Assembly: GCF_024168825.1 (NCBI RefSeq)
Contig: NZ_JALJWH010000001.1
Location: 62,001-126,000, forward strand
Origin: Paenarthrobacter sp. A20
GTDB taxonomy: Bacteria > Actinomycetota > Actinomycetes > Actinomycetales > Micrococcaceae
DNA length: 64,000 bases
Reading direction: 5' to 3'
The notes beneath the pieces were generated by a model. That model was not told the origin of the DNA. It ran no database searches and worked only from the letters and a program-made list of their open reading frames with translations. The first letter of the stretch is position 1, and the number at the start of each line of letters is the position of its first letter. This document shows, piece by piece, positions 10,681 to 17,013 of this stretch. A program made the translations under genes and the position numbers.

Positions 10681-11019
10681 GATGGGCGGTTGTTCCTGAG
10701 CTCCCGGCTGTATCTCCACACCATGACCAACGATGCAATGGCGACGATGATTCCGGAAACAGTAGACCACCAGTTCTGAGCTCCATTTCATGGCGGAGTC
10801 CTGGCATCCCCGTTAGGACCGGCGCCACCTAGACGACCCCAACAAACACTCAAATTTGGCCTATAGAGCACCTAGACGCCCTCGATCACCACTCATTCCT
10901 GCTATCCCCAACACCTAGTGCCTTTTTCATGTTGCAGGCTGAATCCGACGCGGTTCTCGATCTTGCCCATGGGGGAATCCGTTACAAAGAAATCTGTTCC
11001 CCACTCTCTAGGAGAAGAA

Positions 11020-11178
11020 ATGAACTGGCAGCAAATTAGCTGTTTGGCTGGGTTTCTCGGGCATATCGTCGCTACAGGTTCACTGATTGCGGCGGCATTC
11101 ACGGGCGGTGCGACACTCATTATCGGCGGTATTGCGTATTCATTGAGTGCGCTTGCAACGATGCTCGGCTGCGGTTAG
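11020..11178 (+). CDS. Short hydrophobic Gly/Ala-rich peptide, candidate bacteriocin precursor
   Basis: 52 aa starting MNWQQISCLAG and ending MLGCG, almost entirely small and hydrophobic, with eleven or so glycines and two cysteines (8 and 51) that could form an end-to-end disulfide or a modified ring. AGGAG sits 5 nt before ATG 11020; the longer in-frame extension upstream has no such site. It has no Sec signal. A GG pair (29-30, 36-37) is in the middle, not in a normal double-glycine leader. A 49-aa membrane protein, an ABC ATPase and a permease follow in the same direction, the typical neighbourhood of leaderless or circular bacteriocins. A membrane-active signalling peptide or small toxin is also possible. 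Confidence 0.6.
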   Translation: MNWQQISCLAGFLGHIVATGSLIAAAFTGGATLIIGGIAYSLSALATMLGCG

Positions 11179-11185
11179 GCCCAAA

Positions 11186-11335
11186 ATGAAGTTACTGACG
11201 CTAACGGCAGCTTGCCTGTTCCTCATCACGGCTGTCATCGCGTTGTTCAGCAATCCCCCGATGGCCGCGCTCTCCTTCACGGCCTCAGTTGCGATGGTTG
11301 CAACTTGGGTCGTCTACAAGAAGCAGAGCAAGTAG
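11186..11335 (+). CDS. 49-aa two-helix membrane protein, possible immunity protein
   Basis: ATG 11186 lies 7 nt after the peptide stop, so translation is probably coupled; only a weak ribosome site is present. The product has two hydrophobic segments (about 3-18 and 22-42) and a basic tail ending YKKQSK, with the overall pattern of the tiny basic membrane proteins that often confer self-immunity next to bacteriocin genes. No family is recognised. It is too short for standard gene callers and may be unannotated. Confidence 0.55.
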   Translation: MKLLTLTAACLFLITAVIALFSNPPMAALSFTASVAMVATWVVYKKQSK

Positions 11336-11349
11336 TCGTTCATCACCGG

Positions 11350-11385
11350 AGCCGCGCCCGACGCTGAGTCAGGCCGGGCGCGGCT
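11350..11385 (+). terminator. Hairpin between peptide genes and ABC transporter
   Basis: AGCCGCGCCCG (11350-11360) and CGGGCGCGGCT (11375-11385) form a perfect 11-bp GC-rich stem with a 14-nt loop, 15 bp after the small membrane gene and 34 bp before the ATPase. No U-run follows, so it may be a partial terminator or an mRNA-stabilising element that gives more peptide transcript than transporter transcript. Confidence 0.55.
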
Positions 11386-11418
11386 TCTCCAACGCGAAGT
11401 GACCCCTATTGAGGACGC

Positions 11419-12336
11419 ATGAATTTCATCAACGTTGAGAACCTCTCCAAGAACTTCGGGCAATTCCAGGCCTTGAACGACGTCTCTTTCTCTGTGAAAG
11501 CCGGGGGATCGCTGGCGATCATAGGGCCGAATGGCTCGGGAAAGACCACACTGGTCCGCTGTCTCCTAGGACTGCTGAATGCCAGCGAAGGTACGGCAAA
11601 CATAGCCGGCCAACCCTACGACGCCGGCCATCCATGCACCGTCGGCTACCTGCCGGAGGAACGTGGCAACTTCCAACGCGATACTCCTCTGGACGTGCTG
11701 CGGTTATTCGGGAAACTTCGCGGCCTCACACATCATGACGCCAGTTCGCAGGCGTACGAGTACCTCGACGACGTCGGGTTGGCCCCGCATGCACGATCAC
11801 CAATCCAAACACTGTCCAACGGTCAGCAGCAGAAGATCCATCTGGGAATCACGTTCGTTGGCAACCCTGACCTCCTGGTCCTGGATGAGCCGACGCGCGG
11901 CTTCGACCCTGTAAACCAGGCCATCTTTAAAACCTACCTGGAACGGCATCTCCTCCGCGGTGCCACTCTTATTCTGGTGACAAACCAAATGCATGAAGTT
12001 GAAGAGCTCACAAACAATGTCCTCTTTCTCCGCAAGGGCAAGCAACACTTTGCAGGCGAAGTGGAGGAAGCCAAGCAGAAGCTCGGTGGGCGCCGTACCG
12101 CATTGAGCTACACAGGTGTTCTTCCGCCGCACGCCAGTGAGTGGAATGTAGAGATGCCAGAGAATGGCACCCTCCTGCTGGACTCACGGCACGGGATCGA
12201 TTCGGCGAACCAGCTGTTGGGTCGGCTGCTCAATTCCGGAGTTAAGGTGACAGACTTCAGCACGCGGTTGTCGAGCCTCGACGAGATATTCGTGGGCGTA
12301 TATGGCGATTCAGCACAGTTGGGATCCTTGAACTGA
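11419..12336 (+). CDS. ABC transporter ATP-binding protein (NatA/drug-export type)
   Basis: 305 aa. Walker A GPNGSGKTT (36-44), a degenerate signature LSNGQ (132-136), and Walker B LLVLDEP (152-158) are present. The D-loop region reads GFDP where GLDP is usual. At the H-loop the sequence is LVTNQMHEVEE, with Asn189 where the switch histidine normally sits. The C-terminal third (about 215-305) is the extension common in NatA/YhaQ-type exporters. It overlaps the permease start (TGATG). With the upstream peptide it would be the exporter or self-protection pump. The missing H-loop His suggests altered ATPase cycling. Confidence 0.85.
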   Translation: MNFINVENLSKNFGQFQALNDVSFSVKAGGSLAIIGPNGSGKTTLVRCLLGLLNASEGTANIAGQPYDAGHPCTVGYLPEERGNFQRDTPLDVLRLFGKLRGLTHHDASSQAYEYLDDVGLAPHARSPIQTLSNGQQQKIHLGITFVGNPDLLVLDEPTRGFDPVNQAIFKTYLERHLLRGATLILVTNQMHEVEELTNNVLFLRKGKQHFAGEVEEAKQKLGGRRTALSYTGVLPPHASEWNVEMPENGTLLLDSRHGIDSANQLLGRLLNSGVKVTDFSTRLSSLDEIFVGVYGDSAQLGSLN

Positions 12337-13547
12337 TGGTCATGCCAAACTGGACCCTTCTCACTTTCGAACTCAAACGCCACTTCAAAAGGAAAAGCTA
12401 CTGGGGAGCCACGTTAGCGGTTCCACTCGTTGTCATCGTTTTGGTGATTCTGGCACAGGTTGGCACTGCAGCCGCAGAAAAGAACGCCGCAAACAGCACG
12501 GTGGGCGTGATGGACTTCAACTACGTGGATCCCGGCTGCGTGATAGACGTAAAACTTGCCGAAGAGTCAGGTGGAACCCAGGTTTTTGATGTTGCTTCAG
12601 CCATCCATGACGTTGAGGAAGGAAGAACACAGACACTGCTGGTTTTCCCCGTCAATCCCGCAAATGGCCGCATTGACATCTACGAGAACAACAAAGGACT
12701 GGTAGGCGACCAACGGTCTACGCCCCTGGCCCGCCACCTGTTGCAAATTTCCACGATCAGAGGTGCCGCACTACCTGAGCTAGCCAAGCCTTTGACCGGC
12801 AGCATTGAGGTCAATCGTGTTGGCTACAGGAATGGCAGTGCCGATCCAGGGTTGTCTTCCGTGGTGCCTCCCCTGCTCTTCCTGCTCCTGTACTTCGTAG
12901 TGACCATTTTTCTTGGCAACCAGATCATGTCCAGCTTCGCTGAGGAGCGCGAACAGAAAATCCGTGAGGTGCTCTTTCTGGATACATCCCCGGCGAGTGT
13001 CTATGCAACCAAGATCCTGACCACCGCTGTCCTGGGACTGGTTCAGCTCCTGAGCATGTCTCTGCCGTTGGTAGTGGTCTATGTGGCCGTGGGCCGGGAC
13101 CTCGGATTGCCCCTACCGGCATTCCAAACCTGGGTGTTGGATGGCTCCAAAATGGTTGTAGGGCTGCTAATCCTTCTGCTCGGCGTAGTGTTCATGGTCT
13201 CCATTCACGCAGCTATCGGCGCACGGCTTCGAAGCGTCCGTGAAGGTTCGGCCTTCGCCACGCTATTCGTCATTCTGATGTTCGCCCCGGGTTACGCCTT
13301 GGGCCTGCTATCTGAGGAGCCTGGATCCCAGATTGTTCAGCTGTTCACGTTCTTTCCACCGACGGCCCCCAGCACCCTGCTCTTCAGGAACGCTTTCGGA
13401 AACGTCTCGGCGGCCGAGCTGATTGTCAGCTGCGCAGTCCTCCTAGTTGCCAGTTCCTTGGCCTTCTTCATTGGGCGCCGCGTGTACGCGGGGAAGGGAG
13501 CAAGACGCGGTGTAGTCGGAAGCCTGGGAAGTAGCGGCGGCCGGTGA
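12336..13547 (+). CDS. ABC-2 type permease (NatB-like)
   Basis: 403 aa with one N-terminal membrane helix (about 22-45), an extracellular loop of about 150 residues, and five to six C-terminal helices (about 170-395) in the ABC-2/NatB arrangement; the EEREQKIREVLFLDTSP segment between helices is the usual coupling motif. ATG 12336 overlaps the ATPase stop. Partner of the ATPase at 11419 in exporting or clearing a membrane-active substrate, most simply the peptide of this cluster. NatAB-like sodium or antibiotic export is the alternative. Confidence 0.85.
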   Translation: MVMPNWTLLTFELKRHFKRKSYWGATLAVPLVVIVLVILAQVGTAAAEKNAANSTVGVMDFNYVDPGCVIDVKLAEESGGTQVFDVASAIHDVEEGRTQTLLVFPVNPANGRIDIYENNKGLVGDQRSTPLARHLLQISTIRGAALPELAKPLTGSIEVNRVGYRNGSADPGLSSVVPPLLFLLLYFVVTIFLGNQIMSSFAEEREQKIREVLFLDTSPASVYATKILTTAVLGLVQLLSMSLPLVVVYVAVGRDLGLPLPAFQTWVLDGSKMVVGLLILLLGVVFMVSIHAAIGARLRSVREGSAFATLFVILMFAPGYALGLLSEEPGSQIVQLFTFFPPTAPSTLLFRNAFGNVSAAELIVSCAVLLVASSLAFFIGRRVYAGKGARRGVVGSLGSSGGR

Positions 13548-13623
13548 CAGCGAGCCTTGTGACTACTGGTGTGATTCATCAGTGGCTATGCGGGGCACCC
13601 GATGATGGGGGCGTCGTAACACT

Positions 13624-14022
13624 ATGAAGATCCATGGCAAGAGTGCCACCGGTTATTGGTTGATGTTGGCGGGTTGGTACGGACTGACAATCGGCATGGC
13701 GACGCTGGCCCCAATTCCCTGGCTCTTGGTGGCTGGCGGGGTCTGCATCGTTTTTCCCTTAGTTGTGGGCTTGCTCTATGGGCAGATCGGCCGGAAAGTT
13801 CAGTACAAGCCAGGTCCGGACAGCCCGGCGATTGTCATCATGGCTACCGTCTTCGCCGTGGTAGGCACACTTCTGCGCGGCTCCTCAATCGTTGGATGGG
13901 CGGGGCCGGTCCTGGGCTTTGTCACGTTCATCGGTATGTACCTTTGCCTACGCCGGTACGGTCACTTCCACGTAAGCGGCTATGAGGTTTCGCCCGACCA
14001 GCAAAGGGAAAACGCACGCTGA
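13624..14022 (+). CDS. Small four-helix membrane protein
   Basis: 132 aa with four hydrophobic segments (about 10-28, 32-52, 70-88 and 92-108) and a polar C-terminus. It lies 76 bp after the permease in the same direction and could be the last gene of the peptide/ABC cluster, perhaps an accessory immunity protein, or an independent gene. ATG 13624 lacks a strong ribosome site. No family is recognised. Confidence 0.55.
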   Translation: MKIHGKSATGYWLMLAGWYGLTIGMATLAPIPWLLVAGGVCIVFPLVVGLLYGQIGRKVQYKPGPDSPAIVIMATVFAVVGTLLRGSSIVGWAGPVLGFVTFIGMYLCLRRYGHFHVSGYEVSPDQQRENAR

Positions 14023-14044: not shown

Positions 14045-14530
14045 TCATCGATCGCCGCTTTTCCGCTCCAGTTCTGCACCTTGCGGTGTCTCGTATTCAG
14101 CAGAGAGACCCCTGGGAAGGAAGCTGAAGGAGACTATTGCACCGCCGTCGACGTTCCATAGCGCTGTTGTGGTCTCTTCGAAGTGCTCCAGCTTCGGCTT
14201 TCCCCACCGTGCTTCGCCCTCACGGACCATGAGCGTATGGGCGTCGCCGAGGAATGCGGTGGACTCCGGTGTCACCTCCCGGATGGTGTCCGACGTGTCG
14301 AGGCTCAAATCCATCATCACGTTTTTGTAATCGATGGTCATGACATCAGCGGTGGTGAAGTTGGAGACTGTGTTCATTAGATATGGCGTGTCGTTCTCCA
14401 CTTCGATGGTCCAACCGAACCGCTCCACAGCACGTTGCTGGGCCTCATCCTTCGACATCGGCCAAGGGGCTGCAATCCAAAAGTCCATGATGTCGCAGAG
14501 CTCAGCAGGGGGCATTGATTTCCATGTCAT
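14045..14530 (-). CDS. DUF6301-like protein (copy A)
   Basis: 161 aa, with the start at ATG 14530 overlapping the stop of the upstream gene (ATGA), although the frame is open to 14587. It is clearly paralogous to 16519-17013: both begin TWK-(S/A)-M-x-PAE-(L/V)-CD-(I/L)-MDFW and share an ERxGW-(T/S)-IEVE-(N/D)-D-x-PYLMNTVS-x-FT core, TPES-(T/A)-x-FLGD, and a TPQG-(A/V)-EL-(E/D)-R end. I recall this pattern as the actinobacterial DUF6301 family, whose function is unknown. No signal peptide or membrane segment. It could be an immunity or chaperone-like partner of the coupled upstream gene. Confidence 0.65.
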   Translation of the reverse strand: MTWKSMPPAELCDIMDFWIAAPWPMSKDEAQQRAVERFGWTIEVENDTPYLMNTVSNFTTADVMTIDYKNVMMDLSLDTSDTIREVTPESTAFLGDAHTLMVREGEARWGKPKLEHFEETTTALWNVDGGAIVSFSFLPRGLSAEYETPQGAELERKSGDR

Positions 14531-16074
14531 GTGTTTCGTCCTCTTCCGGGGGTCGCGTTCTTCGCTCGTTCGATCCAGACCCTCCACGCGGAATAGCTGA
14601 AAAAGTTGAAATCGTACCCGGCCGCGGCAGCGGCATCCTTCAACGTCTCACCCACGCGGAAAAGGGGTCTGCCGTCATCGGCCTCGATTGACTGGGCGAT
14701 CTCGGCGTCCGTGGCGTTGAGCAAGTGAATCAGAGGGTAGGCCGCACGGAAGGTCTCGAAGCCGCCGATGAAATCCACCCAATGACCGCGTCCCCAACGA
14801 ATCTCCGTACCATGGGGCCCGACTTTTACATCAACCCCAGGTGCATCCTCAAAGGTGGCTATCTGCTTCTCCGGCCAGAGCATCCCCTGCACCACGTCAA
14901 GGGCGAAGGGCCGCACAGAGTCAGCCCGGGCCACTACCTTTGTGCGGTTGAGGCCGGCATGGCGCAATTCCAGAGTGCCATCGTCGGTCACAGCGATGAC
15001 CTTCGTCGTCGACAGGTTTCTCCATTCCAGAACCGCGTCGGGGTGGGTGAGCAGGCTGAGCTTCACGCGAGGGTTGATCGCCTTCATGGGCAGAGTATTG
15101 AGAATTTGCTCGACCAGAGGGTGGTCCAGGGCGCTGACGAACACGGTGGGTCGGCGCTCTCGTTCCACAGTCCCCAGTGCGTCGACGTGGTTCGAGTCGA
15201 GCCCCAGACCGGGGAGGTCCAAGGAAGCGGAACCGGGGTCCATCCGGGCCACCCGTTCTGCGGACCAGGTCTGTCCTACTGGTATCTGCTCTGCCTCCCG
15301 CCAGGCCCGATAGCTGAGCTCATCAGGACTCTTTAAGCCGTAGGAACTCCGCAATGCGGCGACGCACCGCTCTGCGAGCTCACGGTACTCCGAGGTCAAC
15401 GCTGGAAGCGGCAGAACGGAGGACCAGTTCGGCTGCGCAAGGCCGGGTGCCTGCCAGCCGGCGTCCCTCAGCACGGACTCGTCGGCGTTAACCGCTACAT
15501 CCTTTCCTGGAGCCTCGGCGTCAAGACGGTCGCCCTGCCCCGCGAATTGCACATACCGGTTGGGGTACACGTCAGAGGCGATGATCAGATAGGCGCGATC
15601 CGATACGGATCGGAGGGTGGCTGCGAGTCGATCGCGGAAGTCGTTCCAGTCGAACGCAGCCTGCTCGTTTGGCGTCCGCTCAGTCCACGGCATCGGCACC
15701 CGTCTTCTGACAGTGCTGAAATGGAGGTCCGGGTCATCATGTGGGATATTTTTGACCCGATCCGGGTCACGGGGATCAAGTCGTTCAAACCCCTCGTCAC
15801 CAGCTGAGGGTTCCAGGGTGCTCACCATGAGTCCGTGTGGGCCACTCAGTCGGACTTCGACGATCAAGCCTCGATAAGTGCCACGACGAACGACTTCATG
15901 GCACTCCAACTGCTCCTCCCGACCGATCTCCCGGATGAATCCGCGCTTACCCAAAGGAGTGAATCCCGGCGTTGGCTGATCCGTCCACAGCACCCAAATA
16001 TCTCCTCGGGGCTGGAGCTGATACTCAACGCCGTCAAGAACGGCATAACGTCCCGGTCTTATGAGGTCTTTCAT
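14527..16074 (-). CDS. Unrecognised 515-aa two-part protein coupled to DUF6301-like gene
   Basis: Start ATG 16074 overlaps the stop of the broken copy upstream (ATGA), and its own stop overlaps the downstream DUF6301-like start. Residues 1-130 form a module that recurs, disrupted, at 16071-16517: PG-(R/T)-YAV-x-DGVE at the front, (R/H)-G-(T/I)-YRG-(L/I) in the middle, and GDPDL/DDPDL followed by PMPW at the end. Residues 130-515 are soluble mixed alpha/beta with no motif I know; an aspartate/arginine-rich C-terminal region holds a WVDFIGGFETF stretch. No signal peptide. It could be part of a polymorphic toxin/immunity locus. Confidence 0.6.
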   Translation of the reverse strand: MKDLIRPGRYAVLDGVEYQLQPRGDIWVLWTDQPTPGFTPLGKRGFIREIGREEQLECHEVVRRGTYRGLIVEVRLSGPHGLMVSTLEPSAGDEGFERLDPRDPDRVKNIPHDDPDLHFSTVRRRVPMPWTERTPNEQAAFDWNDFRDRLAATLRSVSDRAYLIIASDVYPNRYVQFAGQGDRLDAEAPGKDVAVNADESVLRDAGWQAPGLAQPNWSSVLPLPALTSEYRELAERCVAALRSSYGLKSPDELSYRAWREAEQIPVGQTWSAERVARMDPGSASLDLPGLGLDSNHVDALGTVERERRPTVFVSALDHPLVEQILNTLPMKAINPRVKLSLLTHPDAVLEWRNLSTTKVIAVTDDGTLELRHAGLNRTKVVARADSVRPFALDVVQGMLWPEKQIATFEDAPGVDVKVGPHGTEIRWGRGHWVDFIGGFETFRAAYPLIHLLNATDAEIAQSIEADDGRPLFRVGETLKDAAAAAGYDFNFFSYSAWRVWIERAKNATPGRGRNT

Positions 16075-16517
16075 GTGGTCTTCCTCCATGGCATGGGAAA
16101 GGGAGTTCGCGGGGTGGTGATACGGAGGTCGGGGTCGCCCAAGGGGATGGACTTCCTGTATTCACCACGATCGACCTGCCGAAACCCCTCAGCAACTGAC
16201 GTCGAATCGTTCGTCCAGGCCATCACCGGCCCTTCAGGCGATTGGACCGCAATGGTGATGCCACGGTAGATGCCGTGATACTCGAGTCTGAAGCACTCCA
16301 ACTCCAGCGGGTCCCCCACGGTGACTCGCCGCACATACCGGCCATACTCGTCTCTGGTGAAGCCCGCAGTTCGCTCGTTGCTCCAGAGCTCCCAGCCCTG
16401 GCCCTTTGTAGACAGTCGGATCTCGACGCCGTCCTACACGGCATAAGTGCCTGGGGCCAGAAACTTCGACGGCGGAGGTTCAGGAGAGCGGCGTTGGAGC
16501 CTTTTGGCGCGAGCCAC
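16071..16517 (-). pseudogene. Stand-alone copy of the 515-aa protein's N-module, with in-frame stop
   Basis: Starting at GTG 16517, one base after the DUF6301-like stop, the frame encodes the same module as residues 1-130 of the next gene but is broken by TAG at 16434-16436: PGTYAV-stop-DGVE against PGRYAVLDGVE. Sequence on both sides of the stop stays in frame and recognisably similar, so this is a recent nonsense mutation (or a sequencing error). The copy ends with TGA overlapping the ATG of the full gene and lacks the 385-residue C-terminal part. Confidence 0.65.
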
Positions 16518-16518
16518 C

Positions 16519-17013
16519 TCAGTTCCCCGACGTCCGGTCGAGCTCGACGCCCTGCGGCGTCTGGAACATTGCGCTGAGGCTCTTCGGATGGCAATTCAAT
16601 GAGATGCGCGCACCGGAGGACAAGCACCAGCTCGCCGACTCCGAGCCCGCAGACGCTCGCATCAGCTGCTTTCCCCAGCGCTCCGTTCCTTCACGCACCA
16701 TGAGCGCAAAGTTGTCCCCGAGGAATTCAGTTGATTCCGGCGTGATCCTACGGATTACGTCAGAGATCCGCAGGCTGATGTAGCTGAGAGCTCCCTCGCT
16801 ACCAATCGTCGAAACGTCCGGGATAGTGAAGCCCGATACCGTGTTCATAAGGTAGGGAACGTCGTCTTCCACCTCGATGCTCCAGCCATAACGCTCGACG
16901 GCGAGGCGCTGCATTTCGTCCCGCGTCAGCGGCCACGCGGCGGCAGCCCAGAAGTCCATGAGGTCACAGACCTCGGCCGGGCTCATGGCTTTCCACGTCA
17001 CGATTTCTGTCAT
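16519..17013 (-). CDS. DUF6301-like protein (copy B)
   Basis: 164 aa, first gene of the leftward group, starting at ATG 17013 behind GGGGAGG. It shares about half its residues with copy A (14045-14530), especially the first 65 residues and the TPESTEFLGD block. The order DUF6301-B, N-module (broken), full 515-aa gene, DUF6301-A shows that a two-gene unit was tandemly duplicated and one half then decayed. Its biochemical role is unknown. Confidence 0.65.
   Translation of the reverse strand: MTEIVTWKAMSPAEVCDLMDFWAAAAWPLTRDEMQRLAVERYGWSIEVEDDVPYLMNTVSGFTIPDVSTIGSEGALSYISLRISDVIRRITPESTEFLGDNFALMVREGTERWGKQLMRASAGSESASWCLSSGARISLNCHPKSLSAMFQTPQGVELDRTSGN

Follow-up and report, generated by a model that had tools for sequence, protein, structure and literature searches.

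The pep52 gene and its neighbours

The 64,000-nucleotide stretch analysed here, hereafter the window (Paenarthrobacter sp. A20, a soil bacterium; NZ_JALJWH010000001.1, positions 62,001-126,000 of the forward strand; all coordinates count within it), carries a compact group of forward-strand genes around a very small open reading frame (ORF), pep52. Its product, a proposed leaderless bacteriocin, is an uncharged, Gly/Ala-rich peptide of 52 amino acids (11020-11178). It is followed by mp49 (11186-11335), encoding a basic 49-amino-acid membrane protein and proposed immunity protein, and then by genes for an ATP-binding cassette (ABC) ATPase of the DrrA/NatA type (11419-12336; PF00005, 94.9 bits) and an ABC-2 permease (12336-13547; PF12698, 97 bits), which together are proposed as the exporter. 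A GC-rich hairpin that lacks a U-run separates mp49 from the ABC genes (11348-11387), the gene of a 132-amino-acid membrane protein lies beyond the permease (13624-14022), and a series of heptamers that we regard as a candidate operator array stands upstream of pep52 (10826-10918). A preliminary description had listed the peptide, the 49-amino-acid ORF, the hairpin, the ABC genes and the further membrane protein, and every one of these elements was located. We consider it likely that pep52, mp49 and the ABC pair form a bacteriocin-type module, and the peptide probably represents a bacteriocin of a new kind.

Several lines of evidence establish pep52 as a gene. The ORF runs from an ATG at 11020 through 52 codons to a stop at 11176-11178, and specifies Cys8, Cys51, one His and no Lys, Arg, Asp or Glu. 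Comparison with Paenarthrobacter aurescens yields 19 synonymous and 2 non-synonymous changes (dN/dS 0.023), and the ratio is about 0.1 against both G341 and G152; the gene is under strong purifying selection and its conservation is beyond chance. The ATG and the purine stretch immediately 5' of it, AGGAGAAGAA (ribosome-binding region, 11007-11019), are identical in the window and the three other loci aligned, while the in-frame codons open upstream are unshared (48, 26, 4, 4, 5 and 25 in six loci). The start whose conservation had been in question is thus kept in all leaderless homologues seen, with no common upstream extension. The exception is L015. Its frame is already open at a GTG (7863) and includes an Ala-X-Ala stretch, and no ribosome-binding site precedes the internal ATG that corresponds to the start of the others; on our reading of the sequence, translation of this homologue probably begins further upstream and probably supplies a signal peptide.

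The peptide belongs to no catalogued family, in keeping with the earlier impression that pep52 resembles no familiar peptide. None of nine family members matched a Pfam or NCBIfam model at its cut-off, the circular-bacteriocin models (PF09221, TIGR03651 or related) among them, and a sequence search of the PDB with the window peptide gave nothing at E<=10. Two candidate identities were rejected as matches of hydrophobic composition: Ssp4, sub-threshold in 9/9 members (the window peptide reaches about 18 bits at most, with the cut-off at 300), and a type III translocator, with a score far below its cut-off. Cys8, Gly50 and Cys51 are invariant in the nine-member alignment used for structure modelling (P0004, with a differing C-terminus that lacks Cys51, was omitted), and AlphaFold2 models the peptide at low confidence (pLDDT 69, pTM 0.37) as a helical hairpin with helices at residues 3-28 and 31-50. 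Both cysteines lie at the same open end of this hairpin, so that a Cys8-Cys51 disulfide, if the model is right, would close the molecule.

Relatives of pep52 are few. Approximately 5.8 billion proteins yielded four, and an alignment query two more, one of which (P0009) resembles L015, itself in that alignment. At E<=0.01 the peptide was matched in 9/395 family genomes: five of the same genus (G000, G152, G341, G363 and G365), G109 (69% identity), G153 (41-42%, E 4e-5) and two, G054 and G333, whose weak matches were judged chance and excluded from all counts. An order-level search matched 12/396 genomes, two strongly and both already known; the other ten (best E 8.3e-4) were likewise judged chance and left uncounted. 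Plasmids gave no match at E<=1. In all five same-genus genomes the peptide, mp49, ATPase and permease genes are adjacent, with different flanks in G365 (L012). The more distant G109 (L013) has a leaderless 54-amino-acid homologue followed by a 52-amino-acid basic hydrophobic ORF, and G153 (L015) a homologue followed by another such ORF, of 63 amino acids. Metagenome clusters agree with this: the contigs of the peptides P0008 and P0004 match in length those of the mp49 relatives P0016 and P0035 (35,689 and 4,411 bases) and are presumably identical with them.

The permease is bound closely to the peptide in its distribution. It was matched at E<=1e-40 in 66/390 family genomes, yet only the five pep52 genomes exceed 33% identity (52-100%), and those five are exactly the genomes above 50%. 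The ATPase scored 160 bits against TIGR01188, under the cut-off of 312. The hairpin that precedes the two genes is part of a region folding at -37.3 kcal/mol (z -2.3; 3/200 shuffles fold equally well), and a strong hairpin occupies the same position in all three relatives folded, that of L012 being formed from different sequence; there (L012 8310-8425) a perfect-looking 20-bp hairpin (z -6.3) takes its place. The element is possibly a partial terminator or an mRNA-stabilising structure, and could lower expression of the transporter relative to peptide and immunity protein. The further membrane protein, which matches no Pfam family at cut-off, was correctly placed beyond the permease, but is a doubtful member of the cluster, because in L012 it does not adjoin the module (the only match, at 27%, lies about 3.2 kb upstream) and G801, G808 and G829 have it but not the module. 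The absence of a modification enzyme was confirmed to the extent that a Pfam scan of the cluster shows none of the enzymes of daptide synthesis.

A phased array and a LuxR-type regulator

The array upstream of pep52 alternates CACCTAG (10826, 10869 and 10912) with CACTCAA (10847) and CACTCAT (10890), at spacings of 21, 22, 21 and 22, and alignment shows it conserved in L010, L011 and L014. In the same genome CACCTAG copies lie 20-60 bases apart at four places besides pep52 (8 matches in total, against 3 for the reversed pattern). One of these arrays forms the promoter of a gene 2.2 Mb from pep52, whose 865-amino-acid product has an N-terminal ATPase-like region (AAA-type matches under their cut-offs, 24.2 against 32.6) and a C-terminal LuxR helix-turn-helix (GerE, 41.3 bits against 23.5, residues 804-856). 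By its size, its ATPase-like region and this domain, the protein is predicted to be a LuxR regulator of the large ATP-binding (LAL) type, and in several genomes its own promoter carries an array.

Array and regulator occur together with great regularity. At >=53% identity, 32/150 genomes of the genus have the regulator, and it occurs in 5/5 same-genus pep52 genomes. The pattern CACCTAG-N14/15-CACCTAG, which does not capture the alternating array of the window (found by a wider pattern and by alignment), occurs at 95 sites in 24/150 genomes, namely 23 of the 32 with the regulator and G760 (Fisher 8.6e-19); once sites lying 6 kb or less from the regulator are excluded, the counts are 22/32 against 1/118 (Fisher 1.0e-17). 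These Fisher values ignore phylogeny, and the reversed-pattern control was unclean (0 to 5 matches per strand in many genomes), so that we rely on the genomes lacking a regulator at >=53%, of which 117/118 show no match to the forward pattern; the sole exception, in G760, consists of nothing but a 7-bp tandem repeat. A variant element of the same period, CAC[TG]GAG, was derived from the mp49 loci of G827, G842 and G791. It forms arrays in 9/150 genomes (control 0/150), precisely those nine regulator genomes in which no CACCTAG array occurs, and six of these contributed nothing to the definition of the pattern. With either element counted, arrays are found in 32/32 regulator genomes and in 1/118 others.

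The two element types may be mirrored in the regulator itself. We aligned 23 regulators, 14 from the CACCTAG-array group (24 such genomes are known, 23 in the sample and G152) and all 9 from variant genomes. Three of 846 gap-free columns are fixed for one residue in the 14 and another in the 9, and only one of the three, residue 837 (Asn in the CACCTAG group, Ser in the variant group), falls inside the helix-turn-helix, within a TVExH stretch that we take to be the DNA-recognition helix of LuxR/NarL proteins. This match of residue to operator element is no more than suggestive, because seventeen columns have disjoint residue sets between the groups, and, like the co-occurrence tests, it takes no account of phylogeny. 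Taken together, co-occurrence and co-divergence make the array a candidate operator of the LAL regulator.

The distribution of mp49 leads to the same set of genomes. The family (its 49-amino-acid member in the window matches no Pfam family at cut-off and has 4 Lys/Arg and no Asp or Glu) occurs in 14/150 genomes of the genus as 16 copies, and all 14 are among the 32 regulator genomes (Fisher 2.6e-11), whereas pep52 itself is found in 3/150. Thirteen of the 16 copies have no pep52. Nine of these stand directly behind an array (G829, G780, G365, G808, G842, G809, G799 and two in G791), one in G827 (L157) follows an array and a 19-codon truncated pep52, and one in G391 is separated from an array by about 670 bases that contain other ORFs; the G768 copy has no array, and that of G782, counted among the thirteen, was not located. 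The loss of a peptide with retention of its partner is the pattern typical of immunity genes, orphan examples of which are described in PMC10598978, and by this analogy mp49 may be read as an immunity protein. In five variant loci (L159, L161, L162, L164 and L166) the array ends 36-37 bases 5' of the mp49 start, which has no clear ribosome-binding site, and these genes are possibly read from leaderless transcripts.

Other genes behind the arrays and a shared chromosomal site

To what else the arrays are attached was surveyed in 40 stretches chosen from the 95 sites, 48 sequences in all with the window and the loci of its own genome. Arrays were defined by regular expression (73) and genes counted when on the same strand and within 1.3 kb behind, the query classes being picked from the same loci. 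The largest class was a family of 64-amino-acid basic membrane proteins (11, three of them with a 149-amino-acid secreted-type preprotein), followed by daptide RRE homologues (9, with one gene, in L130, counted twice), the regulator (7), WXG100-like genes (5), pep52 (5), mp49 without pep52 (4), daptide-methyltransferase-like or 60-amino-acid genes (4), a 156-amino-acid membrane protein (4, one a 23% match) and a 92-amino-acid circular-bacteriocin gene (2). Behind the remaining 22 none of the query genes was found.

Recognised peptide and toxin loci are among these genes. G769 has a complete daptide cluster behind its array, with RRE (207.8 against a curated cut-off of 150), aminotransferase (555.7 against 450), dehydrogenase (346 against 300) and methyltransferase (262 against 175), and daptide RRE genes follow arrays in G804 (187 against 150) and G382 (162.7 against 150). 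Daptide-type methyltransferase genes, each followed by that of a 60-amino-acid basic membrane protein, stand behind arrays at L117 5620-6360 (G829; 185.5 bits against 175), L138 and L014. Circular-bacteriocin genes of PF09221 occur in G819 (24.3) and G768 (26.2; gathering threshold 23.6); the G819 gene is under the cut-off of TIGR03651 (21.4 against 30.7), and the SpoIIM match of the gene after the PF09221 gene is below its own cut-off (20.2 against 26.9). In G814 (L118 6380-9584) the array precedes WXG100-like genes, whose match falls just under the cut-off (26.6 against 27.3), and a 728-amino-acid protein with a C-terminal nuclease domain (54.8 against 27), a locus that reads as a polymorphic-toxin operon in the same putative regulon.

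Further arrays precede 149-amino-acid preproteins with a signal-peptide-like start (L109 4777-5226, L110 4544-4993 and L118 1345-1794), each followed by the membrane protein of about 64 residues, which stands without them in L143, L146, L148 and L122; the two would be a second peptide-plus-immunity-like pair. The preproteins share with pep52 a Gly-rich C...GC end, and homology between the two was rejected (profile-comparison probability 2.8%). In the Paenarthrobacter sp. A20 genome itself (C1, about 2,265,400; L071 5442-8429) an array is followed by a 42-amino-acid ORF whose likeness to the preprotein family is confined to the signal peptide (70% over 23 amino acids), and then by genes for a peptidoglycan-binding protein, an ABC ATPase and an FtsX permease; this may be what is left of a peptide locus and its exporter.

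Different array-linked genes also occupy one chromosomal site. The interval between a gamma-glutamyltranspeptidase (GGT) gene and a major facilitator superfamily (MFS) gene holds pep52 in the window and in G363, daptide genes in G769, G801 and G777, and in G829 a lone daptide-type methyltransferase with an orphan mp49. In genomes whose MFS gene lay outside the fetched DNA, the genes next to GGT were pep52 (G341, G152), daptide genes with an orphan mp49 (G808), and a 45% methyltransferase homologue with an orphan mp49 (G780). In the stretches examined of G365, G382, G768 and G804 there is no GGT or MFS gene near the daptide genes. Genes for a DUF6301 protein (84.4 bits), a TY-Chap3 protein (94.1 bits) and a second DUF6301-like protein adjoin the module (14045-17013), and the same trio adjoins the daptide genes of G769 and G801.

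Known systems and competing explanations

The preliminary description spoke of a bacteriocin-type cluster with the architecture of AS-48 and lacticin Q. The shared array, the mp49 copies without a peptide and the exchange with daptide genes at one site all favour the first part of that description, but membership of either family does not hold, given the missing family and PDB matches, the missing leader, the low-confidence two-helix model and the lack of a SpoIIM or PH-domain gene among those scanned with Pfam. Like the leaderless class II bacteriocins of the aureocin A53/lacticin Q type, pep52 has no leader, about 50 residues, a dedicated ABC transporter and no modification enzyme, but it differs from them in its want of charged residues, its two conserved cysteines and a model of two helices rather than a saposin bundle. 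A PH-domain or Yip1-type accessory protein, common though not universal with leaderless bacteriocins according to the portion of PMC11580447 available to us, is absent among the scanned cluster genes; the same source reports from Paenarthrobacter a core peptide of aureocin A53-like, thucin-like type, by description of another family than pep52. With circular bacteriocins (PF09221, AS-48/uberolysin) the locus shares a small basic membrane protein beside the peptide and ABC genes, as well as the kind of array found in G819 and G768, yet none of its five cluster genes matched SpoIIM (DUF95), the membrane protein of circular-bacteriocin clusters according to PMC8659200. Daptides, as outlined in part of PMC10036551, share with pep52 the array in relatives, the chromosomal site and nearby ABC genes, but they have RRE, aminotransferase, dehydrogenase and methyltransferase genes and a modified C-terminal Thr, whereas pep52 ends in Gly/Ser (other residues in L013 and L015).

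The regulatory arrangement also has a counterpart. The SARP-LAL operators of Streptomyces (PimR; PMC5930380, as far as its available text goes) are likewise heptameric direct repeats upstream of antibiotic-pathway genes, with a large ATP-binding regulator; PimR uses a SARP domain to bind its repeats, which are 11 nt apart, unlike the LuxR/GerE domain and the 21-22-bp spacing here. CACCTAG as a whole word was not found in the open-licence literature, nor, as judged from listings, was any regulon in Arthrobacter joining LAL/LuxR regulators, bacteriocins and direct repeats, and within that literature the regulon is apparently undescribed.

In the mechanism that we propose, pep52 would be made without a leader, be exported by the neighbouring ABC-2 transporter and, folded as a helical hairpin whose ends the Cys8-Cys51 disulfide can join, enter the membranes of related bacteria, where it may act to kill. 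The mp49 protein would reside in the membrane of the producer and protect it, and the LAL-type regulator would bind the phased heptamers from its locus 2.2 Mb away, turning on the operon together with other competition genes. Several results weigh against this mechanism. Beside the peptide pairs of L013 and L015 the DNA examined holds no such ABC pair, so that the expected link between peptide and transporter stands for the same genus and does not extend to these relatives; their genomes lack the LAL regulator, and their small membrane proteins align with mp49 at just 29% and 22% identity and were not recovered by the mp49 search at E 0.01. The peptide is uncharged, whereas many bacteriocins are cationic, and its structure model is weak. 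On the regulatory side, the homologues found in G289 and G828 reach 40-46% identity to the regulator but neither array type is present there, phylogeny is disregarded in the Fisher values, and nearly a third of the surveyed arrays have none of the query genes behind them. Daptides, moreover, are treated as competition peptides on inference; PMC10036551 reports haemolysis but no growth inhibition for them, and they are therefore unproven as weapons.

The most serious alternative retains the bacteriocin and reassigns the transporter. The ABC pair might extrude the peptide from the membrane of its producer, as LanFEG does, while pep52 leaves by another route. The L013 and L015 pairs would fit such a role, the ATPase is weakly similar to lantibiotic-protection ATPases (TIGR03740, 102.9 bits against 309.75), and a transporter serving both export and immunity is described for a leaderless enterocin in the part of PMC10598978 at hand. 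Nevertheless, the cluster has no other export system, pep52 has neither leader nor signal, and mp49 already fits immunity, so we regard self-protection as somewhat unlikely and export by the ABC pair as the better assignment.

Well below this stands the idea of an ordinary small-membrane-protein operon, for stress or the envelope, whose promoter type is common with weapon genes by chance. It would account for the arrays with no query gene behind them and for several others that precede small membrane proteins of unknown function, but it leaves aside the recognised peptide, circular-bacteriocin and nuclease-toxin genes behind arrays in several genomes, as well as the single site occupied by pep52 and daptide genes, and we think it improbable. 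Slightly less probable again is an intracellular toxin-antitoxin or self-poisoning pair, in which pep52 harms its own membrane, mp49 neutralises it and the ABC genes are passengers or detoxifiers. The two genes are indeed tiny and adjacent, the peptide is hydrophobic, and L013 and L015 keep the pair without the transporter. An addiction module would not be expected to leave mp49 behind without its toxin in several genomes, however, and the confinement of the close permease to pep52 genomes, the array shared with secreted-peptide and toxin loci and the signal-peptide-like N-terminus predicted for L015 all speak against it as well. Least probable of all is that pep52 is a signal, exported as a pheromone or membrane cue to which the LAL regulator responds, with mp49 part of its sensing, as the arrays in the regulator's own promoter might suggest by their likeness to autoinducing circuits, since pep52 occurs in only 3/32 regulator genomes searched and can be no general input, and pheromones of such length and hydrophobicity are unusual.

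The bacteriocin-type module therefore remains our favoured explanation, and it admits a bolder form, to which we give somewhat less than an even chance. A single LAL-type LuxR regulator may command, through the phased array, an arsenal of unrelated peptides and toxins across the Arthrobacter/Paenarthrobacter group, with pep52 founding a new class of bacteriocin, a helical hairpin without charge whose head and tail are linked by a disulfide and not by a peptide bond. Regulator and operator would have diverged together (CACCTAG with Asn, CAC[TG]GAG with Ser), and weapon modules would be swapped at the hotspot while immunity genes remain. If the proposal is correct, an uncatalogued bacteriocin family would be added, and the operator array would become a handle for competition-peptide loci too small or too divergent for family models. 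Chemically unrelated peptide products would come under one regulator whose two operator specificities, both natural, could be compared, and a single chromosomal site would show the producer, immune and remnant states side by side.

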